Positions 2,120 through 13,710 of a stretch of DNA of 44,679 nucleotides are shown one piece after another. The position numbers were made by a program, and so were the translations under genes. The notes beneath the pieces are model-generated. The model was given only the letters and a program-made list of their open reading frames with translations. It searched no databases and was not told the DNA's origin. Positions within the stretch are counted from its first letter, which is position 1. Every line of letters begins with the position of its first letter. Origin of the DNA: Dyella sp. ASV24 (GTDB taxonomy: Bacteria > Pseudomonadota > Gammaproteobacteria > Xanthomonadales > Rhodanobacteraceae); assembly GCF_016428905.1 (NCBI RefSeq), contig NZ_JAELTQ010000024.1:1-44679 (forward strand), given 5' to 3'.

Positions 2120-4171
2120 TCAGTGCGATGCGTCGGGTACCAACTCCAGGTTCAACACCTGGAACGGCGCCAGCGTGATCGTGCCCGGCTGGTCCGCGTC
2201 GAAACTCATCGCGGGCTTGCCTGCGTCTTCCTTCCACGGGCTGCGCGCAGTAAAGCGATGCGCCGCACCCGGCGGAAGCTCCAGCTGTCGACCAAGATCG
2301 ATCACCGCCAGCTGTGGTTTGTCACTGGGGTTGCGCAAGGTGAGGATGGCCTTGGTCGGTGTCCACGCCGCCCAACCGTAGACGTCCAAGCGTCCGGGGT
2401 CGCCACCGACCCAATGCACGTCCTTGAGTACGCCCGCGTTGGTACGTGACCAGCGTGCGGCTTCGGCGAGCACGTCCCAGTCCTGCGTGGAGAGCAGATC
2501 CGGCGTGATGTACATCTCCTGCAACTGCGTGCCGGTGCCGAAGTAAGAGCGCACTTCGTTGGCAAAGTCGTGGCCCGGATCGGCGTTGAGTCGGCGGTTT
2601 TCCTTGGCGTAGATGATGCCGTGGAGCATCAGGGAGTTGAGTGGATACAGCGGGCCCTTCTCCACGATGTTGTGGTACGTCTCGCGGTCGCGATAGGTGA
2701 TCCAACGCTCGCGCTTGGTGCCCACGCCGGCCAGGTCGTCGTCTTCGCCGTCACGCCAGATCGAATCGGCATAGCGCAACCAGAATGGCGAGGCCATGGT
2801 TCCCGTGGTGAGGTTGATGTACAGGTCCGGCTTGGCCACGCGCAGGTCGTCGATCAACTGGATCGCTGCATCGAAGTCGCTGCTGAAGCGGCTGCCTGGA
2901 AATACCTTGTCCGCGTTACCCGTGCCGTCAAACTTGAACTGGTTGATGCCGTCGTTCTTCACCAGATCCATCACGGCGTCGTGGAAACGCTGGTAGTACT
3001 TGGGACCGGAAAGCGCCAGACCGCCATCGATGATCTCGTAGCCAGCCGCCTGCCCGTTCTTGACGCGCTCCTCCTTGGGCTTGCCGTAACCGCCCCACGG
3101 GGACAGCCACATGCCCGGTGCTGCACCGTACTTGGCTGCCGCGTCGCGCAACGGCGAGAAGCCATGCGGGAAGTCCTTGCTGAAATGCCAGCTGCCGCTG
3201 CGATCATCCCAACCGTCGTCGAACAGGTAGGAGTCGAGCGTCACGCCGCGCTTGACCTTTAGCTCCTCGCCGAACGCATGGATGCGGTCCAGCGCCTGCG
3301 CCTCGGTATACGGCGTGAAGTACCCAATGTCGTACCACGAGTTGTAATGCAGGAAGGTGCGATACGGATGCGCACGCTCTCGCTCGACATAGGTGAGGAA
3401 ATCACGGCGCAATTGGTTATCGTGCGTGACGCCGACCACGGCGGAGTACGTGATCGACTGCCCCTTGGGTAGCGGCAAGCCACGTTCAATCCACAGCTTT
3501 GCCTGCTTGCCATGTACCTCACTGGACGAGAGCGGATGCTCGAAGCCCAAGTAATCATGCCCTGCGACGATGGGTGAACCCGGCACGACACCGACGACTT
3601 CCGCACTGTCCGCCTGCATCTGCAGCAAGGCCACCTTGCTGATGTTCTCGTCCTGCTTCAGCGCAGTGATGGTGACGACGGCACGAAGATAGTCGGAGCC
3701 TTCGCGCTGCACCCATTGCCAGTCGACGCGGAAACGGCCGTCTGCATCGCCGAAGGTCGCTTGCACCGTCTTGCCGGCGGAGCGCTCTGCAAGACGGGAT
3801 GCCTTGGCATTCGCCTTCAGCGCGCTGACCTTGGGTGCTGAGATCACCTTCAATTGGCCGACACCGAGCTTGCTGCCATCCGCCATGGTCAATTCAATCG
3901 GCGCCGTTACCGGCAACGTCTGATGGTTCGGCTGATCCTCCACCACCATATCGGCCAACGTGCCGTCGGCGATCTTCCACCGGGCGACAATGCTGTCGTT
4001 GCCGAATTGATATGCGTCGCCCTGTTGCGAAAAAGCAGCCATGTGCCCGTCCGCTGCACCGGCCGCGCCGGTCATCCCAGCCAGCAGCATGCATGCCAGC
4101 AGTGTGCGCCCCCATGGTGCGCGCGATGTGCCGATAAGCCGTTGGGTACGGCCAATTCCAATCCCTGCCAT
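2120..4171 (-). CDS. Secreted clan GH-D glycoside hydrolase (alpha-galactosidase / alpha-N-acetylgalactosaminidase-like)
   Basis: This 683-residue protein starts with an Arg-containing n-region and a hydrophobic segment (about residues 21-40, ending GAAGAA), so it is probably exported. An N-terminal beta-rich domain is followed by a TIM barrel from about 270. Landmarks of clan GH-D (GH27/GH36) are DDGW at 318-321, K-F-D with D415 as candidate nucleophile, and W-R-D with D474 as candidate acid/base. A C-terminal beta domain follows from about 590. ATG 4171 was chosen over the in-frame TTG at 4177 because GAGAGG lies 7 bases upstream of it. It sits just downstream of a TonB-dependent receptor in a sugar amine locus, suggesting release of alpha-linked galactose or galactosamine units from a glycan. 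The exact family and substrate are inferred. Confidence 0.75.
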   Translation of the reverse strand: MAGIGIGRTQRLIGTSRAPWGRTLLACMLLAGMTGAAGAADGHMAAFSQQGDAYQFGNDSIVARWKIADGTLADMVVEDQPNHQTLPVTAPIELTMADGSKLGVGQLKVISAPKVSALKANAKASRLAERSAGKTVQATFGDADGRFRVDWQWVQREGSDYLRAVVTITALKQDENISKVALLQMQADSAEVVGVVPGSPIVAGHDYLGFEHPLSSSEVHGKQAKLWIERGLPLPKGQSITYSAVVGVTHDNQLRRDFLTYVERERAHPYRTFLHYNSWYDIGYFTPYTEAQALDRIHAFGEELKVKRGVTLDSYLFDDGWDDRSGSWHFSKDFPHGFSPLRDAAAKYGAAPGMWLSPWGGYGKPKEERVKNGQAAGYEIIDGGLALSGPKYYQRFHDAVMDLVKNDGINQFKFDGTGNADKVFPGSRFSSDFDAAIQLIDDLRVAKPDLYINLTTGTMASPFWLRYADSIWRDGEDDDLAGVGTKRERWITYRDRETYHNIVEKGPLYPLNSLMLHGIIYAKENRRLNADPGHDFANEVRSYFGTGTQLQEMYITPDLLSTQDWDVLAEAARWSRTNAGVLKDVHWVGGDPGRLDVYGWAAWTPTKAILTLRNPSDKPQLAVIDLGRQLELPPGAAHRFTARSPWKEDAGKPAMSFDADQPGTITLAPFQVLNLELVPDASH

Positions 4172-4231
4172 GTTCAAGCCTCTCTTCGTGCCGTAGCCCG
4201 CGCAGCGTTATCGCTCGCGGCCAGCCCGGAT

Positions 4232-4258
4232 CAAAAAGCCGCGGCAGGCGCCGCGGCT
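4232..4258 (-). terminator. Intrinsic terminator between receptor and glycosidase genes
   Basis: An 8-bp stem (4237-4244 with 4251-4258) with a 6-base loop is followed on the minus strand by TTTTT. It lies between the end of the receptor gene (4279) and the start of the glycosidase (4171). It would reduce read-through, so the glycosidase may be expressed at a lower level or from its own promoter. Confidence 0.72.
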
Positions 4259-4278
4259 CGCGCGTGGGTCAAACCCGA

Positions 4279-7200
4279 TCAGAACTTCTGCTGGTAACGC
4301 AGGTAGACATAACGACCAATGTCATACGACGCGTTGTAGTTATACGGCGTATCGCTGCCCGCGTAAGCGCCGTAGATATACGGCCCCTTACGATTGAACA
4401 CGTTGTTGGCGCCCAGCGAAATGGTGGCCTTCCACGGTGCCTTCCAATACACCTGTACGTCATCGAAGGTAACCGAGGCGATCTGCGTCATCGGCTCCGG
4501 ACCCACACCCGGTGCGTAGTAGTTGGGCAAGGTGCAGGGGAATGCGCTACGCGTATTCGGCGGCGGGAAGGCGCATGGTGCCTTCAGCGGCGAGAAGTAG
4601 CGCATGGTCCAGGTGGCGCCAAAGTCGCGCCAGGCCCAATCCACCGAGAAGTTGCCACGCAGGCGCCACACCGACATGGCCGTCTGCGACGACGCGATGC
4701 CTGTGCCGTACACCACCGCCGAACCCACCGTCGGCAGCATGTTGTAGCTGGTGACGTAGGTACCGGAAAGGTTGAGCTTGAAGCGTCCGATCGCGTACTC
4801 GGGCAAGGCGTAAGCGAGATTGAAATCGTAGCCGGAGGTCTTCTCCCAACCGGCATTGGTTTCCAGGTTCATCAGGTTGATGATTTGCCCGGTGCCCGCC
4901 TGCCGCTGGAACTGTGAGCATGCCGACTCAATGCCGTACTGGTAGCAGTTGGCCAGCACCTGATCATTGGTGATGCCGGTGATCAGGTTGCGAATGTTGT
5001 AGCGCCAGTAGTCAACCGAGGCATTGAAGCCCTGCAGCCAGGACGGGCTGTACACAAAGCCGACCTGGCCGTTGTACGAGGTCTCGGGCTGCAGATGCGA
5101 ATTGCCGCCGTTGAAGCTCTCCGTAACGCCAACGGAATCAGCAGCGATCACCGGCTGTCCGGTGTTGTCGAGCTGACGGAAGTTCGCCGGTACACCGGCA
5201 ACCCCGGCAAAACCCGTCTTGCAACGCTGTGCAACCGAGGGACTGTAGCCATACATGGCGGGACCGAATACCGCATCACAGGGATCCGTGAAGCCGCCCG
5301 CGTTGTAGAGGCCCTGATAGAGATCGTTGACGGTGGGTGCGCGGAAACCCGTGCCATAGCTCGCACGGACCAACAGGTCTTCGAACGGCTGCCAGGTCAG
5401 CTTGAACGACGCATTGGTGGTGCTGCCGAAGTTGCTGTAGTCGGAATAGCGAAGCGCCGCATCCAGTGCGAGGCTCTTGGCGCCGGGCAGATCCTTCAGG
5501 AACGGCGCGTTCACCTCGACATACGCCTCGTTCAAGGAATAGCTGCCGTGATTGGGGCCCACCGCGCCATCGGTCGAATTGCCGGCGGCGGCAAAGGCAT
5601 CAGGCTCGTCGTAACCGGACACGCTGCGATGGTCCACACCGGTCGCAAAGGTGAACTGTCCACCCGGCAAGGAGAACAAGTCACCGCCAAAGTCCGCCGA
5701 TGCCGCCTTTTCCTCGCTGCCATAGCGCTCGACGCTGTTGATCATCAGGTAGTCGAGCATTTGCTGGGTGACGTTGCCCAGCGGATTGAGCGGCACGCAG
5801 CCCGCGATCACGTTGCCCGGCGTGCCGCAACGCACGACGCCATCCGAACCGAGGAAGGACGGCCCCAGCGCGTTCGCTGCGTTCGGCAGGTTGAAATAAC
5901 CCGTACGCGTGTTCACGCCGGTGATCTTGCTGTCGTAGTAGTTCACATCCCAGTTGAACGTGTGCTCGCCCAGGCTGAACACGCCATCCAGGCCCGCACT
6001 GTAACGGGTGTTCTTGGGTTTGTTGTAGCTGTTGAACGTATCGCCGGCAATGCGGCGGTAGAAGTTCACATCCTGCGGCGTCTGGCCGGGCTGGTTATAG
6101 GGGTTGTAATAGCTCTGGGCCGAAAGCACCGATGGGAAGTTGTCATGCCCGCCCATGCCGCTGTACAGGGTGGCCGTGCCCGCCGTGGCCGTCTCGCTGT
6201 CCAGGTTGTAGCCCGCGTTGAACCTGGCCGTGATGTTGTCGGTGATCTTGTAATGCGTATCCAGGTACAGGTTCTTGGTGCGGTCAGCCGTGTGCAACAT
6301 GTACTGATGGCCGGCGTCCCTGTTGTACGTGTAATCACCGGGATTGATCACGTCCCCGTTCGGACCGTAAGTCGGTTTGACCACTTGATGGTAGTCATTG
6401 AGATTGGATCCATCCCCGCCCGGGCCGAGCACGATGGAATGCTGGCTGCCATCGGGAAGGGTCGCGTTGGTGATCACGGGCTGGTAACCCACGTACGAGC
6501 GACCGTACAGGGGATGCTGATCCGTCCAAGGGTAGCTGGAGAAACCGCGCGAGCTGGCCCACACAGGTTCCTGGTTCTGGTACGAGGCACTGAACACCAC
6601 GCCCCAACGGTCGGTGGTCTTGCCGAACGTCACGTCGTACTGGCTCTGCTCGCCATCGCCATGCGGCGCGTACATGCCGTTATAGGTATTGAGCTCGACG
6701 CCGTTGAAATCCTTGCGCGTGATGATGTTGATCACGCCGGCAATGGCATCGGAGCCGTACACAGCGGATGCGCCGTTCGCGAGCACGTCGATGTGATCGA
6801 TGATCGCCGTGGGGATCACATTGACGTTGGTATAGCCGCCATGCGCCGCGCCAATGCGCTGACCATCCAGCAGCACCAGCGTGCGTGGCGCGCCCAGGCC
6901 GCGCAGATTGATGAACTGCCCGCCCTGGTTCGGCCCCAGATCGCCGGGTGCCGACATACTCAGGTCAGGTGTCGCGGCGGCGGAAACGTTCTGCAGGATC
7001 TGGCCGACAGTCGCAAAGCCTTGTCGCTCGATATCGGCGCGACTGATAGTGATCACCGGTTGTGCATCCGCCACGTCAACGCTGCGGATGTTGGAGCCGG
7101 TCACGGTCACCTGCTGGAGCTGCTTGGCGTTCTTCTCGGACGCCTGGCCATCATCCTTGCTCTGCGGCTTGGACGGCACGTTGGTCGGCGTGTCGGCCGG

Positions 7201-7350
7201 CGGTGTCGAAGACTGCGCCAGTGCAGCGCCGCCCCAGGCAACGCCGCCGACAGCCCATGCAAGGCGCATGGCGACTACCAAGGCATTGGCCTGCATCACG
7301 CCGTCGCGACGGCCGTTACACCATGAAGAACCACCCTTCCTCGTATTCAT
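4279..7350 (-). CDS. TonB-dependent outer-membrane receptor
   Basis: This 1023-residue protein has a long signal peptide ending ALA-Q at about 45/46 and a Ser/Pro/Lys-rich linker. A plug domain follows, starting around VTVTGSNIR and including LRGLGAPRTLVLLDGQR and a YGSDAIAGVINIITRK segment. A large beta-barrel ends in an aromatic residue (...YQQKF), as expected for BAM-inserted porins. ATG 7350 was chosen because GGGGAGAG precedes it closely; the longer ORF starting at 7389 lacks such a site. It lies 155 bases downstream of two sugar kinase genes and just upstream of a glycosidase, a layout typical of xanthomonad carbohydrate-utilisation loci. It is therefore inferred to import an oligosaccharide, energised by TonB/ExbBD encoded elsewhere. 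The substrate cannot be read from sequence. Confidence 0.93.
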   Translation of the reverse strand: MNTRKGGSSWCNGRRDGVMQANALVVAMRLAWAVGGVAWGGAALAQSSTPPADTPTNVPSKPQSKDDGQASEKNAKQLQQVTVTGSNIRSVDVADAQPVITISRADIERQGFATVGQILQNVSAAATPDLSMSAPGDLGPNQGGQFINLRGLGAPRTLVLLDGQRIGAAHGGYTNVNVIPTAIIDHIDVLANGASAVYGSDAIAGVINIITRKDFNGVELNTYNGMYAPHGDGEQSQYDVTFGKTTDRWGVVFSASYQNQEPVWASSRGFSSYPWTDQHPLYGRSYVGYQPVITNATLPDGSQHSIVLGPGGDGSNLNDYHQVVKPTYGPNGDVINPGDYTYNRDAGHQYMLHTADRTKNLYLDTHYKITDNITARFNAGYNLDSETATAGTATLYSGMGGHDNFPSVLSAQSYYNPYNQPGQTPQDVNFYRRIAGDTFNSYNKPKNTRYSAGLDGVFSLGEHTFNWDVNYYDSKITGVNTRTGYFNLPNAANALGPSFLGSDGVVRCGTPGNVIAGCVPLNPLGNVTQQMLDYLMINSVERYGSEEKAASADFGGDLFSLPGGQFTFATGVDHRSVSGYDEPDAFAAAGNSTDGAVGPNHGSYSLNEAYVEVNAPFLKDLPGAKSLALDAALRYSDYSNFGSTTNASFKLTWQPFEDLLVRASYGTGFRAPTVNDLYQGLYNAGGFTDPCDAVFGPAMYGYSPSVAQRCKTGFAGVAGVPANFRQLDNTGQPVIAADSVGVTESFNGGNSHLQPETSYNGQVGFVYSPSWLQGFNASVDYWRYNIRNLITGITNDQVLANCYQYGIESACSQFQRQAGTGQIINLMNLETNAGWEKTSGYDFNLAYALPEYAIGRFKLNLSGTYVTSYNMLPTVGSAVVYGTGIASSQTAMSVWRLRGNFSVDWAWRDFGATWTMRYFSPLKAPCAFPPPNTRSAFPCTLPNYYAPGVGPEPMTQIASVTFDDVQVYWKAPWKATISLGANNVFNRKGPYIYGAYAGSDTPYNYNASYDIGRYVYLRYQQKF

Positions 7351-7423
7351 GAACACTCTCTCCCCGTGGTCTATGTCGTCGCACCGCATGAACTCCCCGT
7401 TCGTCGCGGTGCTGGATGACTTC

Positions 7424-7444
7424 CCATGGAGTCGGTCTCCATGG
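7424..7444. promoter_or_regulatory. Perfect inverted repeat upstream of the receptor gene
   Basis: Arms CCATGGAG (7424-7431) and CTCCATGG (7437-7444) flank a 5-base spacer. It lies in the 155-base gap between kinase and receptor genes and has no T-run on either side. It is more likely an operator or a leader hairpin than a terminator. The protein that would bind it is unknown. Confidence 0.45.
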
Positions 7445-7505
7445 ATTGGTTGACGCGAACAACTCTCCCTTTCGCCCGCGTGGCCTCAGCGCGCCACGCG
7501 CGCCA

Positions 7506-8453
7506 TCAAACGCTTGCTGTCGATACCGCGATGCGCTGAATTCGCACGTCAGGAAGCAGCGCCTGCACGACGCGCCGCTCCACAAAGCCGGTTTCCTCAC
7601 CCATGGCATTGGCGGCACCGCAGGCCACCGCGAGGCGCAAGGACTCGTCAAAGCTCAGGCCTCGCTCATGCGCAACGGCCAGCCCCGCCAGGAAACAATC
7701 ACCTGAGCCCACCGCATTCGTGCTCTGTTTCAGCGCGAGCCGGGCGTGCCACGTGGTTTCACCGTCAAAGCCAAACGCGCCCTGTTCTCCCAGCGTCACT
7801 ACGGGCCGCAGAACGCCTCTTGCGTAGAGCTGGTGCAACAAAGACGCCACCTGTTCGTGCGTCTCCACCGGATGCCCCATCAATTGCCCCGCCTCGTCCC
7901 GGTTGGGCTTGATCACACTGGGGCGCGCATCGACGACGTGACGCAAGGCTTCGCCGCTGGCATCCACCAGGCACGCCATACCGTTACCGCTGGCCTGACG
8001 CACGATGCGCGCGTAGGTGTCGCTTTCGAAGCCTCGCGGCAAGCTGCCGGTGAGTACCAATGCATCGCTGTTGTCGAGTGCACGCTCCAGCGTTCGGATC
8101 AGTTGATCGCGCGTCGCGGCACTGAGCATGGGGCCCGGATCGAGCACTTCGGTCATACGACCGTCGCGCTCGCGCAGCGCCAGGCACTGGCGCAAGTCCG
8201 CTCCAATTTCCACACCATGGAACAGCACGCCGCGTTCGCTCATCCGTCGCGCCACGAAGTTGCGATGCGTGGCATCGATAAGACCGACCAGTTGCACTGG
8301 TTCGCCCAATGCGGCGATGGTCTGCGCCACATGCACGCCCTTGCCACCGGGATAGCTCTGCACAGCGCTCGCACGCTGCACGGCGCCCGGTTGCAGCGCG
8401 TCGAGGGTCACCAACCGGTCGATCGCCGTATTGAAGCCCCCGACGGTAATCAC
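7506..8453 (-). CDS. PfkB-family kinase, tagatose-6-phosphate / 1-phosphofructokinase type
   Basis: This 315-residue kinase belongs to the LacC/FruK/AgaZ-like branch of the PfkB family, which phosphorylates sugar phosphates. Visible motifs are the substrate-binding PGGKG at 35-39, KPN at 182-184, and the ATP/anion-hole signature NAVGSGDCF at 246-254 with catalytic D252. In this locus the likely reaction is tagatose-6-phosphate to tagatose-1,6-bisphosphate, feeding the aldolase at 10640. It starts with GTG at 8453, which overlaps the TGA of the upstream kinase as GTGA, implying translational coupling. A role as a fructose-1-phosphate kinase is the main alternative, but no fructose transport genes are nearby. 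Confidence 0.85.
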   Translation of the reverse strand: MITVGGFNTAIDRLVTLDALQPGAVQRASAVQSYPGGKGVHVAQTIAALGEPVQLVGLIDATHRNFVARRMSERGVLFHGVEIGADLRQCLALRERDGRMTEVLDPGPMLSAATRDQLIRTLERALDNSDALVLTGSLPRGFESDTYARIVRQASGNGMACLVDASGEALRHVVDARPSVIKPNRDEAGQLMGHPVETHEQVASLLHQLYARGVLRPVVTLGEQGAFGFDGETTWHARLALKQSTNAVGSGDCFLAGLAVAHERGLSFDESLRLAVACGAANAMGEETGFVERRVVQALLPDVRIQRIAVSTASV

Positions 8454-9376
8454 GCGGCTGCCTCCAGCAAGGCGCGAACATCCGCTTCGCTGCCCTGACA
8501 GGCTGTACCGCCAATGCCGCGTGTGGAAAGCGAACCGCAGGCGCTACCCCAACGCAGGCAATCGCGCAGCGGCACCCCGCGACGCCACGCATGCAGGAAA
8601 CCAGCGTCGAACGAATCACCCGCCCCCGTGCTATCGAGCACATCGACGGCGTGTGCCGCCACGGCAAGCAGGGATCCGTCATCCTGCAACGCGATGCAGC
8701 CGTCACCGCCAAGCTTGACGACGGTCAGCGTGTGACCGTTGCGCAAGGCATGCAGCGATGCCTGCGCGGTGGATTCACCGCTGATCGCGCAAGCCTCGCG
8801 TTCGTTTGGCAAGAACACATCGACCAGGGGCAACAGCGCGACCAGTTCCCTGCCCCAACGTTGGTGCGGATCGAAACCGGGATCGAGCGACACGGTGAGG
8901 CCCGCCCCGCGTGCCCGCTCGAACAATTCACGCAGCCCTGGTCGCAACAGATCCTGCAGGTAGTACGACGAGACATGCAGATGGCCGCAGCCAGCCAGAC
9001 GTTCGTCGGTGATCATGTCCTGGCGCAACGCGCCGATGGCACCGGCATAGGTGACCAGTGCGCGATCCTGCTGCGACGACAACGCTACCGTGATGCCGGT
9101 CTGCAGCGAGGCATCACGCCGCACGGCGGACACATCGATGCGCGCCTCGCGCATGGCATCGACGCAGTAGTCACCCCAACCATCGATACCGGTGACGCCG
9201 GCGAAAGCGACTGGATGCCCCAGACGCGCCAAGCCCATCGCACAGATCATCGATGAGCTGCCGGGCCCCTGACGAAACCCGGACGCCAATACTTCGCCGC
9301 CAAACTCAGGCAGGCGCTCGCAACCGGTGAACACCAGGTCGACGTTGATCTCGCCGGCGATCAGCAGCGGCTTCAC
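8450..9376 (-). CDS. PfkB/ribokinase-family sugar kinase
   Basis: This 308-residue ribokinase-type kinase starts with an IAGEINVDLVF segment and ends with the PfkB signature DSTGAGDSF at 248-256, catalytic base D254. The N-terminal sugar-binding region differs from the kinase downstream, so it probably acts on a free sugar. In this context galactosamine or N-acetylgalactosamine are candidates, but this is inference. The longest ORF begins at 9472. The GTG at 9376 is preferred because it starts the conserved KPLLIAGEI region, has GGAGAG just upstream and overlaps the agaS stop as GTGA. This gives agaS, kinase and kinase as one coupled operon. Confidence 0.85.
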   Translation of the reverse strand: MKPLLIAGEINVDLVFTGCERLPEFGGEVLASGFRQGPGSSSMICAMGLARLGHPVAFAGVTGIDGWGDYCVDAMREARIDVSAVRRDASLQTGITVALSSQQDRALVTYAGAIGALRQDMITDERLAGCGHLHVSSYYLQDLLRPGLRELFERARGAGLTVSLDPGFDPHQRWGRELVALLPLVDVFLPNEREACAISGESTAQASLHALRNGHTLTVVKLGGDGCIALQDDGSLLAVAAHAVDVLDSTGAGDSFDAGFLHAWRRGVPLRDCLRWGSACGSLSTRGIGGTACQGSEADVRALLEAAA

Positions 9377-10581
9377 GTGCTGCTCTCCGCGTCGTGGATG
9401 GCGAACGCCTGCACCACGCGCGTCAACACACCCTGCGACGGCGCATCCGGCTGCTGGCCCAATGACAGGCAACGGAACAAGGCGAGTATCTGACCGGCGA
9501 CAACGTGCACCATGGCCTGCTGTGCTTCATCCAGCCCTGACAGCCTGGGCAACTCGACCGCAACATCACCGGGGCCGATCAGATCCCTGGGAATCGCTTC
9601 GCCCACCACGATGCGCACGCCGCCCAGCTTCTTGCGCGTGATTTCACGCAGCAGGTCCAGCTCGTAGGCGCGCACGGCAGGCGCACTGGACAGAAAGGCG
9701 ACGACCGGACACGGACGATCCAGCCAGGACATCGGGCCATGGCGCAAGCCCAGATAGGTTTCGCACATGGCACTGACAGCGCCGCCGGACATCTCCAGCA
9801 TCTTCAGTGCCGCCTCACGCGCGGCACCAAACGCAGCGCCACTGCCGAGGTACAGCGCAGCATCGAAATCCGCAGCCCCCTGCTGTGCAAGCGCATCGCC
9901 ATAGCGATCGAACAGCTGGGCGGTGATGTCGGCAGCAAGATCCGCCAGGCCTGCATCCGCGTTGCCGCCATGGACATGCAGTAAGCCGCTACCACCCAAC
10001 ACCAGGTTGGTGAAGCTGCTCGTCATCACCAGGCTGCGGTCGTTGGTGCGCGGCGACAGCTGCATCACACGTACGCGTGGCTCGTTGCGATAACGCGTGG
10101 CGAGTTGTCCCTGCACATTGCAAGTCACTACCAGGTGCCGGTAGTCCGGTTCCGCTTCCAGCACCTGATCCACCACACTGGCGCTTTCCGGGCTATCGCC
10201 CGAGCGCGCGATCGATACCAACAGGCCACGCCCCTTGGGCAGCGTGCCGCGGCGATGCGTGAGCAAGGTGCCGGCGGCAATCGCCTGGGCGGGAATGCCC
10301 AAGCCCTCCTGCAGCACCGGCGCCAGGCATTCGCCCACGTAGACGGAACTGCCGGAGCCGGTGAGCACGATGTGCTGCGGCTGGGTGGCGAGCAGCTCGC
10401 GCAGCGTCACCTGCGTGGCGGGGTCAGACAGCCGGGAGGCCGTGTCACGCCACGTATCGGGCTGTTGAAGGATCTCGCGCACGGTGTCGGCACAGCCCAG
10501 GCGCGCCTGCTCGGCGGGCGATGCGGCTTTGAGCGATTCCAGCGTCGGAACAGTCACGGAGGGTTTGACAGGCATGGGCAT
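9373..10581 (-). CDS. agaS: SIS-domain sugar-phosphate deaminase/isomerase, AgaS type
   Basis: This protein of about 402 residues carries two SIS (sugar isomerase) domains. The first contains LTGSGSSVYVGECLAP, a phosphosugar-binding SGSS loop, followed by SIARSGDSPES. The second contains LGSGAAFGAAREAALKMLE and MCETYLGLRHGPMSWL, typical of AgaS and related GlmS-type enzymes. AgaS converts galactosamine-6-phosphate to tagatose-6-phosphate and ammonia. Two start codons, ATG 10581 and ATG 10575, lie 6 bases apart; neither has a clear Shine-Dalgarno sequence. The longer ORF to 10716 is rejected because it crosses the divergent promoter. It is the first gene of the minus arm, opposite the aldolase gene. 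A related glucosamine-6-phosphate deaminase function cannot be excluded. Confidence 0.85.
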   Translation of the reverse strand: MPMPVKPSVTVPTLESLKAASPAEQARLGCADTVREILQQPDTWRDTASRLSDPATQVTLRELLATQPQHIVLTGSGSSVYVGECLAPVLQEGLGIPAQAIAAGTLLTHRRGTLPKGRGLLVSIARSGDSPESASVVDQVLEAEPDYRHLVVTCNVQGQLATRYRNEPRVRVMQLSPRTNDRSLVMTSSFTNLVLGGSGLLHVHGGNADAGLADLAADITAQLFDRYGDALAQQGAADFDAALYLGSGAAFGAAREAALKMLEMSGGAVSAMCETYLGLRHGPMSWLDRPCPVVAFLSSAPAVRAYELDLLREITRKKLGGVRIVVGEAIPRDLIGPGDVAVELPRLSGLDEAQQAMVHVVAGQILALFRCLSLGQQPDAPSQGVLTRVVQAFAIHDAESST

Positions 10582-10582
10582 C

Positions 10583-10618
10583 TGATGAAATATGATGTGA
10601 AACGAAACAACACGAAAC
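10583..10618. promoter_or_regulatory. Candidate DeoR-family operator in the divergent promoter
   Basis: The 58-base gap between the divergent starts of agaS and the aldolase gene holds three GAAAC copies at 10599, 10604 and 10614; a fourth, at 10642, overlaps the aldolase start codon. A further GAAA lies at 10587. On the minus strand this reads TTTCG/TTTCA repeats, resembling the TTTCRTTT-type sites of DeoR-family regulators such as AgaR. The regulator at 12904 is the obvious candidate. Binding here would control both arms of the locus. Confidence 0.6.
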
Positions 10619-10639
10619 CTCAAACACAAGGTATTCGAA

Positions 10640-11557
10640 ATGAAACGCAAGTTGCAAGACCCGTCGTTTTCCTCCTCCAAGCTGGCTTCGCTGGCTCTTT
10701 CGCATGGCAAGCGCACCCGCCTGTGGCGCCTGCTCTATGGCAGCGGTCCGCGCAACGGCAGCCTGCTGGTGCTGCCGCTGGACCAGGGTCTGGAACATGG
10801 CCCGACCGATTTCTTTCCCCACCCGCCGGCCGTCGATCCGAGCTATCAGTTCGAGCTCGCCGAGGCCGGCGGCTTTTCTGCCATCGCGCTAGGCATTGGC
10901 CTGGCCGAGAAGTACATGACGGAGTACTGCGGCCGCGTGCCGCTGATCCTGAAGCTCAACGGCAAGACCAATATCCCCAGCGACGCCGAGGCAACCTCGC
11001 CGTTGTTCGCCTCGGTGGAAGATGCCGTGCGCCTGGGTGCCGATGCAGTGGGCTACACCATGTACGTCGGTTCGCCACGCCAGCAGGACGAGTTCCGCCA
11101 GTTCGAGAAGGTGCGCCAGGACTGCGAGCGCTACGGCATGCCGTTGGTGGTGTGGTCATACCCGCGCGGCAGTGCGATCAATGCCAAGGGCGGCACCAAT
11201 ACGCTTTACGCGCAGGACTACGCCGCACGCGTGGCGCTGGAACTGGGCGCGGATATCGTGAAGCTGCACGAGCCCAACGACAGCGTGGCCAACGTGCCCG
11301 CGCCCTACGACAAACTGCAGGAAGATGCCGCAGCGCGCTGCGCACGCGTGGTGCGTTCGGCGGGCCGCACGATGGTGTTGTTCTCGGGTGGCGAAAAGAA
11401 CGACGATGACGCGGCGGTGCTGCGCAAGGTCGAGTTCTACATGCAGAGCGGCGCCAGCGGCGTGATGTTTGGCCGCAACATGTGGTTGCGACCGTTCGAC
11501 CAGGCAGTGGCCCTCACCCGCCAGGTGCACGACATCATGGCGCGCTATCCGGGTTGA
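10640..11557 (+). CDS. Class I aldolase, DhnA/FbaB family
   Basis: This 305-residue protein belongs to the archaeal-type class I fructose-bisphosphate aldolase family. The phosphate-binding and catalytic framework is visible: LPLDQGLEHGP at 46-55, LKLNGKTNIPS at 105-114, VWSYPRGSAI around 171-180, and ADIVKLHEPN at 204-213 with K208 as the likely Schiff-base lysine. It would cleave fructose- or tagatose-1,6-bisphosphate to dihydroxyacetone phosphate and glyceraldehyde-3-phosphate. ATG 10640 has AAGG 8 bases upstream. It heads the plus arm and is followed after 14 bases by an amidohydrolase. Next to AgaS and a tagatose-6-phosphate kinase-like gene, a tagatose-bisphosphate role is favoured, though this class cannot be assigned by motif alone. 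Confidence 0.87.
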   Translation: MKRKLQDPSFSSSKLASLALSHGKRTRLWRLLYGSGPRNGSLLVLPLDQGLEHGPTDFFPHPPAVDPSYQFELAEAGGFSAIALGIGLAEKYMTEYCGRVPLILKLNGKTNIPSDAEATSPLFASVEDAVRLGADAVGYTMYVGSPRQQDEFRQFEKVRQDCERYGMPLVVWSYPRGSAINAKGGTNTLYAQDYAARVALELGADIVKLHEPNDSVANVPAPYDKLQEDAAARCARVVRSAGRTMVLFSGGEKNDDDAAVLRKVEFYMQSGASGVMFGRNMWLRPFDQAVALTRQVHDIMARYPG

Positions 11558-11571
11558 TCGGGACATACACG

Positions 11572-12828
11572 ATGCATCACGCGAACCCTCGCGCCCGGCG
11601 GCGATTCGATCTGGATCGCCGCCACCTGCTCACCGCCACACGCGCCGGGTGCGGCTGCTGCGCGCCACCGATGCTGGGTGGCGGCAGCGGCAAGAACCCG
11701 CTGCAAACCGCAGCGAAGCAGGACGGCGAGAATCTCCGCCTCACCGACTTCAAACCGCGCAGCATGCTGCACGTGCCGGTGACCCGCGTGGAAAAACCGG
11801 CCTTCCCGGTGATCGACGTGCATACGCACTTGAGCTGGATGAGCGAAACGCGCAACGGCGTATCGCTCGGCGAGGCCATGACCTACTTCGCCGATCCCGC
11901 CGAACTGGTAGCACTGATGGATCGCAAGGGCATCCGCGCCATGGTCAACCTGACCGGCGGCACCGGCAAAGGGCTGGCGGAATCCATCGCGCGTTTCGAC
12001 GCGGTAGCACCCGGACGGTTCCGCACCATGACGGAGCCGTCGTTCGCATTGTTTGCCGAACCCGATTACCCGCGCCTGCAGGCCGAAGCGATTGAACAGG
12101 CGCACAGCATCGGTGCGGCGGGCCTGAAGCTGTTGAAGACGCTGGGCCTGTACCTGCGTGAAGGCATCGACCAGGGGGAACTGGTCAGCGTGGACGATGC
12201 GCGCTTCGATCCCATGTGGGAAACCTGCGCAGCGCGAAAGATGCCGGTGTTCATCCACACCTCCGACCCGGAAGCCTTCTTCCTGCCGGGCGACAGCGCC
12301 AACGAGCGCTACGAGGAACTGGCCAAGCATCCGGACTGGTCATTCTACGGCCCGGAGTATCCCAGCCATCGCGACCTGTTGGCCGCGCGCGACCGCGTGA
12401 TCGCGCGGCATCCCAACACGACGTTCGTGCTGATGCACGTAGGCAATCAGGCCGAGGATCTGGCGGCCATCGCTGCGTGCATGGATCGCCACCCCAACGT
12501 GCACGTGGATATCAGCGCGCGCATCAGCGAGCTGGGGCGTCAGCCGCGCATGGCGCGACGCTTCTTCGAGCGTTACCAGGACCGCATCCTGTTTGGCACC
12601 GACGCCGTGCCGCCCCCTTACGGCAACGATGTGCCGCAGCAGTTGCTAGGCGACGAGCTTTACGAGATCTACTACCGTTTTCTGGAGACAGAGGACGAGT
12701 ATTTCGATTACGCTCCTTCCGCTGTACCGCCGCAGGGGCGCTGGTCCATCTACGGCGTGGGACTGCCGCAGGACATCCTGCGCAAGCTTTACCACGACAA
12801 CGCGGCGCGACTGCTGGGCATGCCCTGA
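11572..12828 (+). CDS. Amidohydrolase-2 family metal-dependent hydrolase with degenerate export signal
   Basis: This 418-residue TIM-barrel hydrolase shows the metal ligands D-x-H-T-H at 82-86, a central IHTSDP, LMHVGN, and FGTDAVPP near the C-terminus, all expected for the amidohydrolase-2 family. The N-terminus has an Arg-rich stretch with RRHLL at 16-20, like a Tat signal. However, the following segment, TATRAGCGCCAPP, is short, weakly hydrophobic and unusually Cys-rich, so export is doubtful. A past frameshift compensated nearby could explain it. Starts further upstream would overlap the aldolase gene. Its role in the locus could be amide or lactone hydrolysis; it is not of the NagA type, so calling it the GalNAc-6-phosphate deacetylase would be speculative. 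Confidence 0.8.
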   Translation: MHHANPRARRRFDLDRRHLLTATRAGCGCCAPPMLGGGSGKNPLQTAAKQDGENLRLTDFKPRSMLHVPVTRVEKPAFPVIDVHTHLSWMSETRNGVSLGEAMTYFADPAELVALMDRKGIRAMVNLTGGTGKGLAESIARFDAVAPGRFRTMTEPSFALFAEPDYPRLQAEAIEQAHSIGAAGLKLLKTLGLYLREGIDQGELVSVDDARFDPMWETCAARKMPVFIHTSDPEAFFLPGDSANERYEELAKHPDWSFYGPEYPSHRDLLAARDRVIARHPNTTFVLMHVGNQAEDLAAIAACMDRHPNVHVDISARISELGRQPRMARRFFERYQDRILFGTDAVPPPYGNDVPQQLLGDELYEIYYRFLETEDEYFDYAPSAVPPQGRWSIYGVGLPQDILRKLYHDNAARLLGMP

Positions 12829-12903
12829 TTCACCACGGTGGCAGGATACCGGCAGCGCTTGCGCAACGATGCCGGACCGGGCCAGCCCACCAGGAAAGGA
12901 ACC

Positions 12904-13710
12904 ATGACGACACGACGCAAGGCTGCCCCGCCCCCGCCGAAGCTGCTGGTGGAAGAACGCCGGCGACGCATCGTCGAGCGGGTCAATGAGCAGGGGCGCG
13001 CGACCGTCGACGAGCTGGTTGCCCTGTTCGATATCTCAGCGGTCACTATCCGTGCAGATCTGGAAGCGCTCGATCGCACCGGTGCGATCAACCGTTCCCA
13101 CGGTGGCGCCCTGCCCGCCTCAACGACGCAACTGGATACGCCGCTCACCATCAAGGAAACCCGCCACCATGCGCAAAAACTGCGCATCGGCCAGGCTGCC
13201 GCACGACTGATCGAGGATGGCGACACCGTGATCCTCGACTCCGGCTCTACCACGGTGGAAATCGCGCGGCAGATCCGTCAGCGCAAATGGACCTCGCTGA
13301 CTGTCATCACCAATGCACTCAATATCGCGATGGAGCTGTCAGCCACGCCGGCTGTGCGGGTGATGATGCTGGGTGGTCTGCTGCGCCAGACCTCGTACTC
13401 GCTCGCCGGCCCCGATGCCGAGCAAGCTCTGTCGAGGCTTTCCGCCGACCGCCTGTTCCTGGGTGTGGACGGTTTGGACCCGGCGGTAGGCGTGACCACG
13501 CCCGACCCGCTGGAAGCCTCGCTCAACGCGCTGATGATCCGCGTGTCGCGCCAGACCATCGCCGTGCTGGATGCCAGCAAGTTCGGTCAGCGCAGCTTGT
13601 CGGTCATCGCGCCGGTGAACGAGCTGGACATGGTCATCAGCGACGACGCAGCACCGGCGGAATACGTCGAGGCGCTGGAAAGCAAAGGCGTGAAAACGCT
13701 GCTTGTGTAG
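12904..13710 (+). CDS. DeoR/GlpR-family transcriptional regulator
   Basis: This 268-residue regulator has an N-terminal winged helix (about residues 15-75), with the DeoR signature VNEQGRATVDELVALF, VTIRADLEAL and a turn RSHGGAL. The C-terminal sugar-phosphate-sensing domain shows DSGSTTVEIAR, VITNALNIA and a late DASKFGQRSL. Such regulators are typically repressors released by a phosphosugar of the pathway. ATG 12904 has AGGAAAGGA just upstream. A longer in-frame start at 12838 is less likely. It lies 75 bases after the amidohydrolase and probably controls the GAAAC-repeat operator at about 10599. By context it may be AgaR-like. Confidence 0.93.
   Translation: MTTRRKAAPPPPKLLVEERRRRIVERVNEQGRATVDELVALFDISAVTIRADLEALDRTGAINRSHGGALPASTTQLDTPLTIKETRHHAQKLRIGQAAARLIEDGDTVILDSGSTTVEIARQIRQRKWTSLTVITNALNIAMELSATPAVRVMMLGGLLRQTSYSLAGPDAEQALSRLSADRLFLGVDGLDPAVGVTTPDPLEASLNALMIRVSRQTIAVLDASKFGQRSLSVIAPVNELDMVISDDAAPAEYVEALESKGVKTLLV

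Follow-up and report, generated by a model that had tools for sequence, protein, structure and literature searches.

A probable AgaR-controlled, phosphotransferase-independent locus for galactosaminide utilisation in Dyella sp. ASV24

Catabolism of galactosamine (GalN) and N-acetylgalactosamine (GalNAc) has been described in several bacteria. In E. coli, AgaS is a galactosamine-6-phosphate deaminase/isomerase, AgaR binds promoters of the agaR/agaZ and agaS kind, and NagA can substitute for AgaA (PMC3668189). In a review, KbaZ/GatZ is classed as a subunit of tagatose-bisphosphate aldolase and AgaZ as a proposed tagatose-6-phosphate kinase (PMC12118421). The Shewanella aga pathway includes an outer-membrane transporter, omp-Aga, together with AgaP and AgaK (PMC2996990; PMC12118421), and a galactosaminidase of Flavonifractor plautii acts synergistically with a GalNAc deacetylase (PMC11762096). 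Here we analyse a candidate aga locus at positions 2120-13710 of a 44,679-nucleotide stretch of Dyella sp. ASV24 (contig NZ_JAELTQ010000024.1), the whole of which is called the window below. A preliminary description of this locus had put forward outer-membrane uptake as a novelty for aga pathways; such uptake was already known from the omp-Aga of Shewanella.

We consider the Dyella locus to be, quite probably, an AgaR-controlled galactosaminide locus that is independent of the phosphotransferase system (PTS). Beyond the gene families and their conservation, the computational analysis found a common AgaR-type operator motif, displacement of two lower-pathway genes by GatZ/KbaZ in relatives and linkage of the glycosidase family to aga genes. 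Together with homologues of the F. plautii galactosaminidase (FpGalNase) in distant counterparts, these observations upheld the galactosaminide locus with an exported glycosidase proposed in the preliminary description. Window coordinates are used throughout, and genes were classed with Pfam and NCBIfam models. All eight genes were confirmed within 2120-13710. They encode an AgaS-like protein, two PfkB kinases, a class I aldolase, an amidohydrolase (AMH), a DeoR-family regulator, a TonB-dependent receptor and GHD, a GH-D-like enzyme predicted to be exported. AgaS, PfkB2, PfkB1, the receptor and GHD are encoded leftward, and the aldolase, AMH and the regulator rightward, with a divergent promoter common to both arms. 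The Pfam classes were TonB receptor and plug, PfkB twice, SIS, DeoC/LacD aldolase, Amidohydro_2 and HTH_DeoR/DeoRC, GHD alone being unmatched. Some open reading frames (ORFs) are over-long at their starts; inspection by eye puts the start of AgaS at 10581 and that of PfkB2 at 9376.

The cluster is not a chance grouping and is widespread in Rhodanobacteraceae. A search of 119 relatives for AMH (E <= 0.001) gave 35 matches: the genome itself, 30 others that matched strongly and 4 in which the match was weak or distant. Twenty of the 30 strong-match loci were fetched, a set chosen by AMH presence in which some regions end before GHD could appear. The gene set, which the preliminary description suggested seeking in related bacteria, recurred there: AgaS and PfkB2 accompany AMH in 20/20 of these AMH-selected family loci, with DeoR in 19/20, PfkB1 and the aldolase in 18/20 and GHD in 15/20. 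A receptor of the window's type was present in 6/20, without counting one 27% match, and three other loci examined carry a receptor of a different type. The second set, which overlaps the first, came from a contig scan with AMH, in which the best 80 of 523 confirmed relatives comprised 18 Rhodanobacteraceae/Lysobacter and 62 acidobacterial loci. Among these best 80, AgaS, PfkB2, aldolase and DeoR matches were found in 18/18 Rhodanobacteraceae/Lysobacter loci, PfkB1 in 17, GHD in 14 and the receptor in 6; an AgaS-like match lay near AMH in 33/80 loci, made up of these 18/18 and 15/62 acidobacterial ones. The closest AMH locus among the 80 was that of Dyella sp. AtDHG13 (94%), the window's own record possibly being excluded. 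In Dyella flagellata (L094), about 8 kb separate AgaS and PfkB2 from the aldolase.

The regulator (12838..13710, + strand) is predicted to be an AgaR-type DeoR-family repressor. It passes the AgaR model NF040755 (273.2 bits, cut-off 260) and is 40% identical to Klebsiella AgaR across 253 residues. The sequence TTTCRTTTY, which we take to be the AgaR-type motif from E. coli work and which was then found in Klebsiella aga promoters, was first spotted in the window promoter and counted elsewhere afterwards. By motif count the window promoter holds two sites on the - strand, TTTCGTTTC at 10599..10607 and TTTCATTTC at 10637..10645, the latter overlapping the aldolase start. For the count, promoters of 38 loci were reduced to 31 by removing identical ones; L094, in which AgaS and the aldolase are not neighbours, had been excluded for that reason at the outset. 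The 31 divergent agaS/aldolase promoters (220 bp each) contain 46 sites, against 60 in the total 654 kb of loci, and 29/31 have at least one; as the loci are related, these sites are not independent. In the same promoters the reversed pattern occurred once, and 300 dinucleotide shuffles gave a mean of 1.1 sites and a maximum of 4. For the window promoter alone, two sites were reached in 1/2000 shuffles. One-mismatch matches over the whole window were not above chance (6 found, 5.2 expected), and 3 of the 6 fall in the divergent promoter.

The motif also occupies comparable positions elsewhere. In 25.6 kb of the Klebsiella aga region, 8/9 sites lie at the agaR/agaZ and agaS promoters. Among acidobacterial loci, the AgaS/aldolase promoter holds both sites in L112 and a single one in L107. 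In the more distant L056 the one site lies upstream of GatZ, and in L055 two of four sites lie upstream of GatZ and the glycosidase. These distributions support a putative AgaR-type operator at the presumed target promoter. A wider AgaR regulon was considered and rejected, the genome-wide count being at background and the sole cluster (on contig C635), the one group of sites inspected, resembling a terminator hairpin.

The lower pathway is predicted to run through tagatose phosphates. The AgaS-like protein (9373..10581, - strand, ORF open to 10716), a predicted galactosamine-6-phosphate deaminase/isomerase with a SIS domain, is 33% identical to Klebsiella AgaS across 373 residues and is the sole agaS_fam match in its genome. 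It matches the structures 3c3j (E 3e-50), 3i0z and 3odp, labelled 'putative tagatose-6-phosphate ketose/aldose isomerases'. PfkB1 (7506..8453, - strand), predicted to be a tagatose-6-phosphate kinase, passes the hexose-kinase subfamily model TIGR03168 (270 bits, cut-off 216) and scores 161 bits, below cut-off, with the LacC model. PfkB2 (8450..9376, - strand, ORF open to 9472; PF00294) is a ribokinase-like sugar kinase and the predicted GalN/GalNAc kinase. The DhnA/LacD-type class I aldolase (10640..11557, + strand; PF01791) reaches 225 against a cut-off of 277 with the best NCBIfam model and matches the class I fructose-bisphosphate aldolase 1ojx (E 8e-50); we predict that it acts on tagatose-1,6-bisphosphate. 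In two of the 20 family loci, L039 and L042 from the same genus, PfkB1 and the aldolase are absent and GatZ/KbaZ stands beside PfkB2 and AgaS. This exchange supports a tagatose bisphosphate intermediate, hence tagatose-6-phosphate as the product of AgaS and galactosamine-6-phosphate as its substrate. The type of kinase varies elsewhere, being BadF-type in L056 and L057 and ROK-type in L107.

GHD (2120..4177, - strand) has a signal-like N-terminus by eye and is predicted to be an exported clan GH-D-like glycosidase, an exo-alpha-galactosaminidase or alpha-N-acetylgalactosaminidase. Stronger evidence on its role comes from aga linkage than from resemblance in sequence or fold. In a plasmid collection searched by tblastn, relatives occurred in 13 records, of which 8 are from Paraburkholderia, 3 from E. 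coli, one from Klebsiella and one from Spirosoma, the last a partial match at 26%; in Klebsiella aerogenes the relative follows agaY in a canonical aga operon. In 149 genomes of a family taken as Enterobacteriaceae there were 14 matches, 12 of full length, and 9 of these 12 directly follow agaY. Two others, in L163 and L216, sit some 3 and 5 kb past agaY-agaS. For the last, in L219, none of the aga genes was matched over 17 kb, and the motif occurs 97 and 142 bp upstream of it. AgaA was unmatched in 4 of the 11 enterobacterial aga loci with GHD (L217, L220, L221 and L223). In complete E. coli genomes, DNA of this family was matched in 551/5426, with at least 80% query coverage in 495. On the chromosomes of strains Nissle 1917 and 3090, the two chromosomal loci read, the neighbourhood of the relative includes remnants of aldolase genes and either an agaR gene or the remnant of a DeoR-family gene; on the STEC639 plasmid, the annotation of which is incomplete, no aga gene is listed near it.

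Annotation of these relatives is uneven. Those in E. coli (L161:9935-11824, L165:13001-14890 and L166:12001-13890) are entered as 'enterotoxin', 'alpha-galactosidase' or hypothetical, and one from Paraburkholderia as 'thermostable cytotonic enterotoxin Ast'. Among the top-ranked results of a literature search, nothing relevant joined the 'Ast/enterotoxin' label with a glycosidase, and the sequence and context of the E. coli and Paraburkholderia relatives fit a glycosidase.

The clan GH-D placement and export of GHD are predictions that draw on remote resemblance. GHD has no Pfam match even at E=10, PF02065 included, and no NCBIfam match; by sequence it does not appear to be a member of the GH36/FpGalNase family. 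A search with its profile picked up the DDGW region of an alpha-galactosidase at E 0.006, ahead of three irrelevant matches. In profile comparisons with FpGalNase-like sequences, 15 Rhodanobacteraceae sequences gave probability 84 and E 8e-6 (hhalign, alignment A4), and a more diverse seven gave probability 77 and E 2e-5; in both, the DDGW and FKFD motifs of GHD align with the FpGalNase-like sequences. The fold model is of low confidence (predicted local distance difference test, pLDDT, 60). The F. plautii galactosaminidase was its top Foldseek match, at 11-12% identity and a template-modelling (TM) score of about 0.3, and such matches are only suggestive. A comparison of active sites between GHD and FpGalNase by profile alignment was too weak for use and was dropped.

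Distant counterparts of the locus carry a recognisable galactosaminidase. L055, L056 and L057 combine distant AMH relatives (28-29%) with DeoR, a melibiase-type glycosidase, an EamA permease, GatZ and a large ORF that is receptor-sized or annotated as a TonB receptor; L056 and L057 additionally have an AgaS-like protein (34%) and the BadF-type kinase. The glycosidases of L056 and L057 match FpGalNase over about 600 residues, nearly the full length (E 3e-72 and 7e-72). Those of L055, L086, L110 and L126 are 33-52% identical to the L057 protein, and L109 also has a match. Among the annotated genes of L055-L057, where not all genes are annotated, the AMH relative is the sole candidate deacetylase partner, and its N-termini look Sec-like by eye.

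We propose the following route, in which every enzyme specificity, the order of the steps and the AMH reaction are predicted. Exported GHD would release terminal alpha-linked GalN or GalNAc, and the TonB-dependent receptor (4279..7389, - strand; PF00593 and PF07715) would carry the sugar or oligosaccharide over the outer membrane. An inner-membrane permease encoded outside the locus would import the sugar, which PfkB2 would phosphorylate in the cytosol. AgaS would then convert galactosamine-6-phosphate to tagatose-6-phosphate and ammonia, PfkB1 would form tagatose-1,6-bisphosphate, and the class I aldolase would split this to triose phosphates.

The role of AMH (11482..12828, + strand, with a likely start at about 11572 by eye) is less readily assigned. 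This metal-dependent hydrolase of the Amidohydro_2 class, a candidate deacetylase, matched PF04909 only, with no NCBIfam match at E 0.001, and by sequence it falls outside the NagA/AgaA deacetylase family. Residues invariant in 47 aligned AMH sequences include H84, H86, H229, H289 and D344 (numbered from the 11572 start), which are putative metal ligands. The preliminary description had regarded a NagA-type deacetylase as missing and the amidohydrolase as standing in its place. Pfam and NCBIfam models found no NagA/AgaA-type deacetylase among the locus genes, so the first point stands for the locus; it fails for the genome, which encodes NagA above cut-off on contig C62. NagA was in fact present in 33/33 AMH-bearing genomes searched. 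AMH thus fills no gap left by its absence, and the replacement, plausible in itself, does not hold as written. By eye the NagA gene on C62 (L198) lies in a separate N-acetylglucosamine-type cluster with ORFs resembling a major facilitator superfamily permease and a TonB receptor. The C62 permease might also serve GalNAc.

We lean slightly towards AMH being a lactonase, a decarboxylase or another hydrolase of a side substrate, with NagA deacetylating in trans, which is compatible with the pathway proposed above. The AMH model (pLDDT 82) is nearest in fold to ACMSD, IDCase and pyrone-dicarboxylate hydrolase, that is, to decarboxylases and lactone hydrolases. The ubiquity of NagA in AMH-bearing genomes (33/33) agrees with such a role, as do the replacement of AgaA by NagA in E. 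coli (PMC3668189) and the varied contexts of acidobacterial AMH copies. It is countered by the presence of AgaS and PfkB2 alongside AMH in all 20 fetched family loci, by AMH or a distant relative near FpGalNase-like genes in L055-L057, L086, L109, L110 and L126, and by the cooperation of FpGalNase with a GalNAc deacetylase (PMC11762096). Our best guess at a single reaction, a tentative one, is deacetylation: AMH would most likely act beside NagA, taking an acyl group off GalNAc or a derivative of it.

The location of AMH appears to differ between groups. A simple rule, a twin-basic motif plus a hydrophobic segment, was satisfied by 58/63 acidobacterial AMH ORFs, and two more ORFs were without the anchor motif; of four Rhodanobacteraceae ORFs one passed, in an over-long frame. 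In 35/39 family loci, which form a redundant set, the N-terminus (about window 11572-11800) carries a CxCC motif in the position taken in acidobacterial relatives by a signal of the twin-arginine translocation (Tat) type. This motif, and the lack of a signal peptide by eye, suggest a cytosolic AMH in Rhodanobacteraceae. A broader proposal, which we regard as doubtful, is that AMH represents a new class of amino-sugar deacetylase with the Amidohydro_2 fold and unrelated to NagA, cytosolic in Rhodanobacteraceae and exported through Tat in Acidobacteriota and a few others. The exported forms would pair with GalN-specific glycosidases, which would act after deacetylation as in F. plautii. On this proposal GHD would represent a second family of GH-D-like alpha-galactosaminidases, one without a Pfam model and common to Rhodanobacteraceae and enterobacterial aga operons.

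Further observations concern AMH copies elsewhere. In one same-genus genome (G002:C1:1901224-1902566) AMH is divided into two overlapping reading frames. A recurrent acidobacterial neighbourhood (L083, L093, L136 and similar) combines AMH with a BNR-repeat protein, an alpha/beta hydrolase and a DUF4832 protein. Pairs of proteins of 525-575 amino acids occur in L102, L109, L110 and L113, Tat-like by eye in the two loci read for this (L102 and L110), and the one member of their cluster that was scanned had no Pfam match. Three acidobacterial AMH loci (L099, L130 and L124) contain a SIS protein, the first two also an amino-acid permease and a PfkB kinase. Phosphofructokinase-type genes are present in L130 (by Pfam) and L124 (by eye), and GatZ in L099. 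These three are possibly amino-sugar or fructosamine pathways.

Several results weigh against an AgaR-controlled galactosaminide locus. The AgaS protein scores 253 bits with TIGR02815 (agaS_fam), short of the cut-off of 529, and is by this sequence test termed AgaS-like, not a TIGR02815 member. No permease is among the locus genes, so the missing permease of the preliminary description is borne out for the locus only; an EamA homologue was absent from the genome in a search that had no positive control. Sequence and model support for GHD as FpGalNase-like is weak: phmmer of PDB sequences found nothing, FpGalNase was unmatched at E 0.1, and the GHD profile did not match it at E 1. The motif is absent from the divergent promoters of L040 and L049 among the 31 examined and from the L057 and L086 loci; single sites lie away from AgaS in L126 and away from GHD in L159, and TTTCGTTTY is at control level genome-wide (52 versus 49). 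No more than 15/62 acidobacterial AMH loci among the best 80 of 523, many on short contigs, have a nearby AgaS-like match, which in several of these 15 is a shorter SIS protein and perhaps not AgaS. With NagA in trans, AMH need not be a deacetylase. In the one Paraburkholderia locus read (L159), GHD lies beside a GH35-like gene (beta-galactosidase, by eye); tblastn found none of the aga genes there, and the motif is absent from the vicinity of GHD.

This Paraburkholderia neighbourhood and the 'alpha-galactosidase' entries among the E. coli relatives could instead point to alpha-galactosides. GHD would then be a plain alpha-galactosidase, galactose would be phosphorylated at C6, and the SIS protein would make tagatose-6-phosphate from galactose-6-phosphate, the lower pathway being identical. 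We find this improbable, given the AgaR-type regulator and operator, the GHD relatives within aga operons, the galactosaminidase homologue in distant counterparts and the action of E. coli AgaS on galactosamine-6-phosphate (PMC3668189). Very unlikely is a locus for Amadori products (fructosamines) with a kinase and a SIS deglycase, as in fructoselysine use. The acidobacterial loci L130 and L099 fit such a scheme: both encode an amino-acid permease, a SIS protein of 360-380 amino acids and a PfkB kinase, to which L130 adds a phosphofructokinase and L099 GatZ. Against it, the Dyella locus has no amino-acid permease, its regulator is of the AgaR type, its lower steps are of the tagatose type and can be exchanged for GatZ, and it includes the GH-D-like enzyme predicted to be exported. 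A sulfoglycolysis-type locus, prompted by the set of isomerase, PfkB and LacD-type genes, was rejected: a literature search found nothing, and the AgaR operator speaks against such a locus. Also set aside as a substrate was galactosaminogalactan or Pel polymer, the genome having no GH114, the sole family tested.

On the galactosaminide reading, AgaR-controlled galactosamine catabolism would reach Rhodanobacteraceae and also, judged by the motif, two or more acidobacterial loci, the same steps being carried out by different enzymes. It would also give a testable function to the GHD glycosidase family, found in 551/5426 complete E. coli genomes, and to the AMH family, which is frequent in Acidobacteriota. 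Blood-group conversion is one use for which enzymes removing alpha-GalN or alpha-GalNAc are being looked for (PMC11762096). The pathway type and outer-membrane uptake are already known; as far as the literature searched shows, what is new is this combination of enzymes, AMH and the connection of the GHD family with aga genes. No paper on the Dyella locus was found in that literature, and the regulon paper of Leyn (2012) may cover part of it.

Compared with known systems, the locus shares features with three. The Shewanella Aga system (AgaK, AgaP, AgaA-II, AgaS, AgaO and omp-Aga) is likewise PTS-free and combines an outer-membrane transporter, a kinase and AgaS (PMC2996990). Compared by description, the Dyella locus lacks its permease and NagA-type deacetylase, has PfkB2 as the candidate amino-sugar kinase and adds AMH and GHD. 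With the enterobacterial aga/gam operon (agaR, agaZ, PTS, agaA, agaS and agaY) it shares an AgaR-type regulator and motif, AgaS, a predicted tagatose-bisphosphate lower pathway and a GHD relative, which follows agaY in Klebsiella and in 9/12 enterobacterial genomes with the gene. Unlike that operon, it has neither PTS nor AgaA, PfkB kinases and a class I aldolase replace AgaZ/AgaY, and a TonB receptor and AMH are added. The F. plautii pair of GalNAc deacetylase and GH36 galactosaminidase has its likeness in the distant AMH loci, where an FpGalNase homologue is paired with an AMH relative that appears to be exported, judging from a signal seen by eye. The Dyella glycosidase is of a different family and its AMH is an Amidohydro_2 protein, a fold other than that of the F. 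plautii deacetylase.

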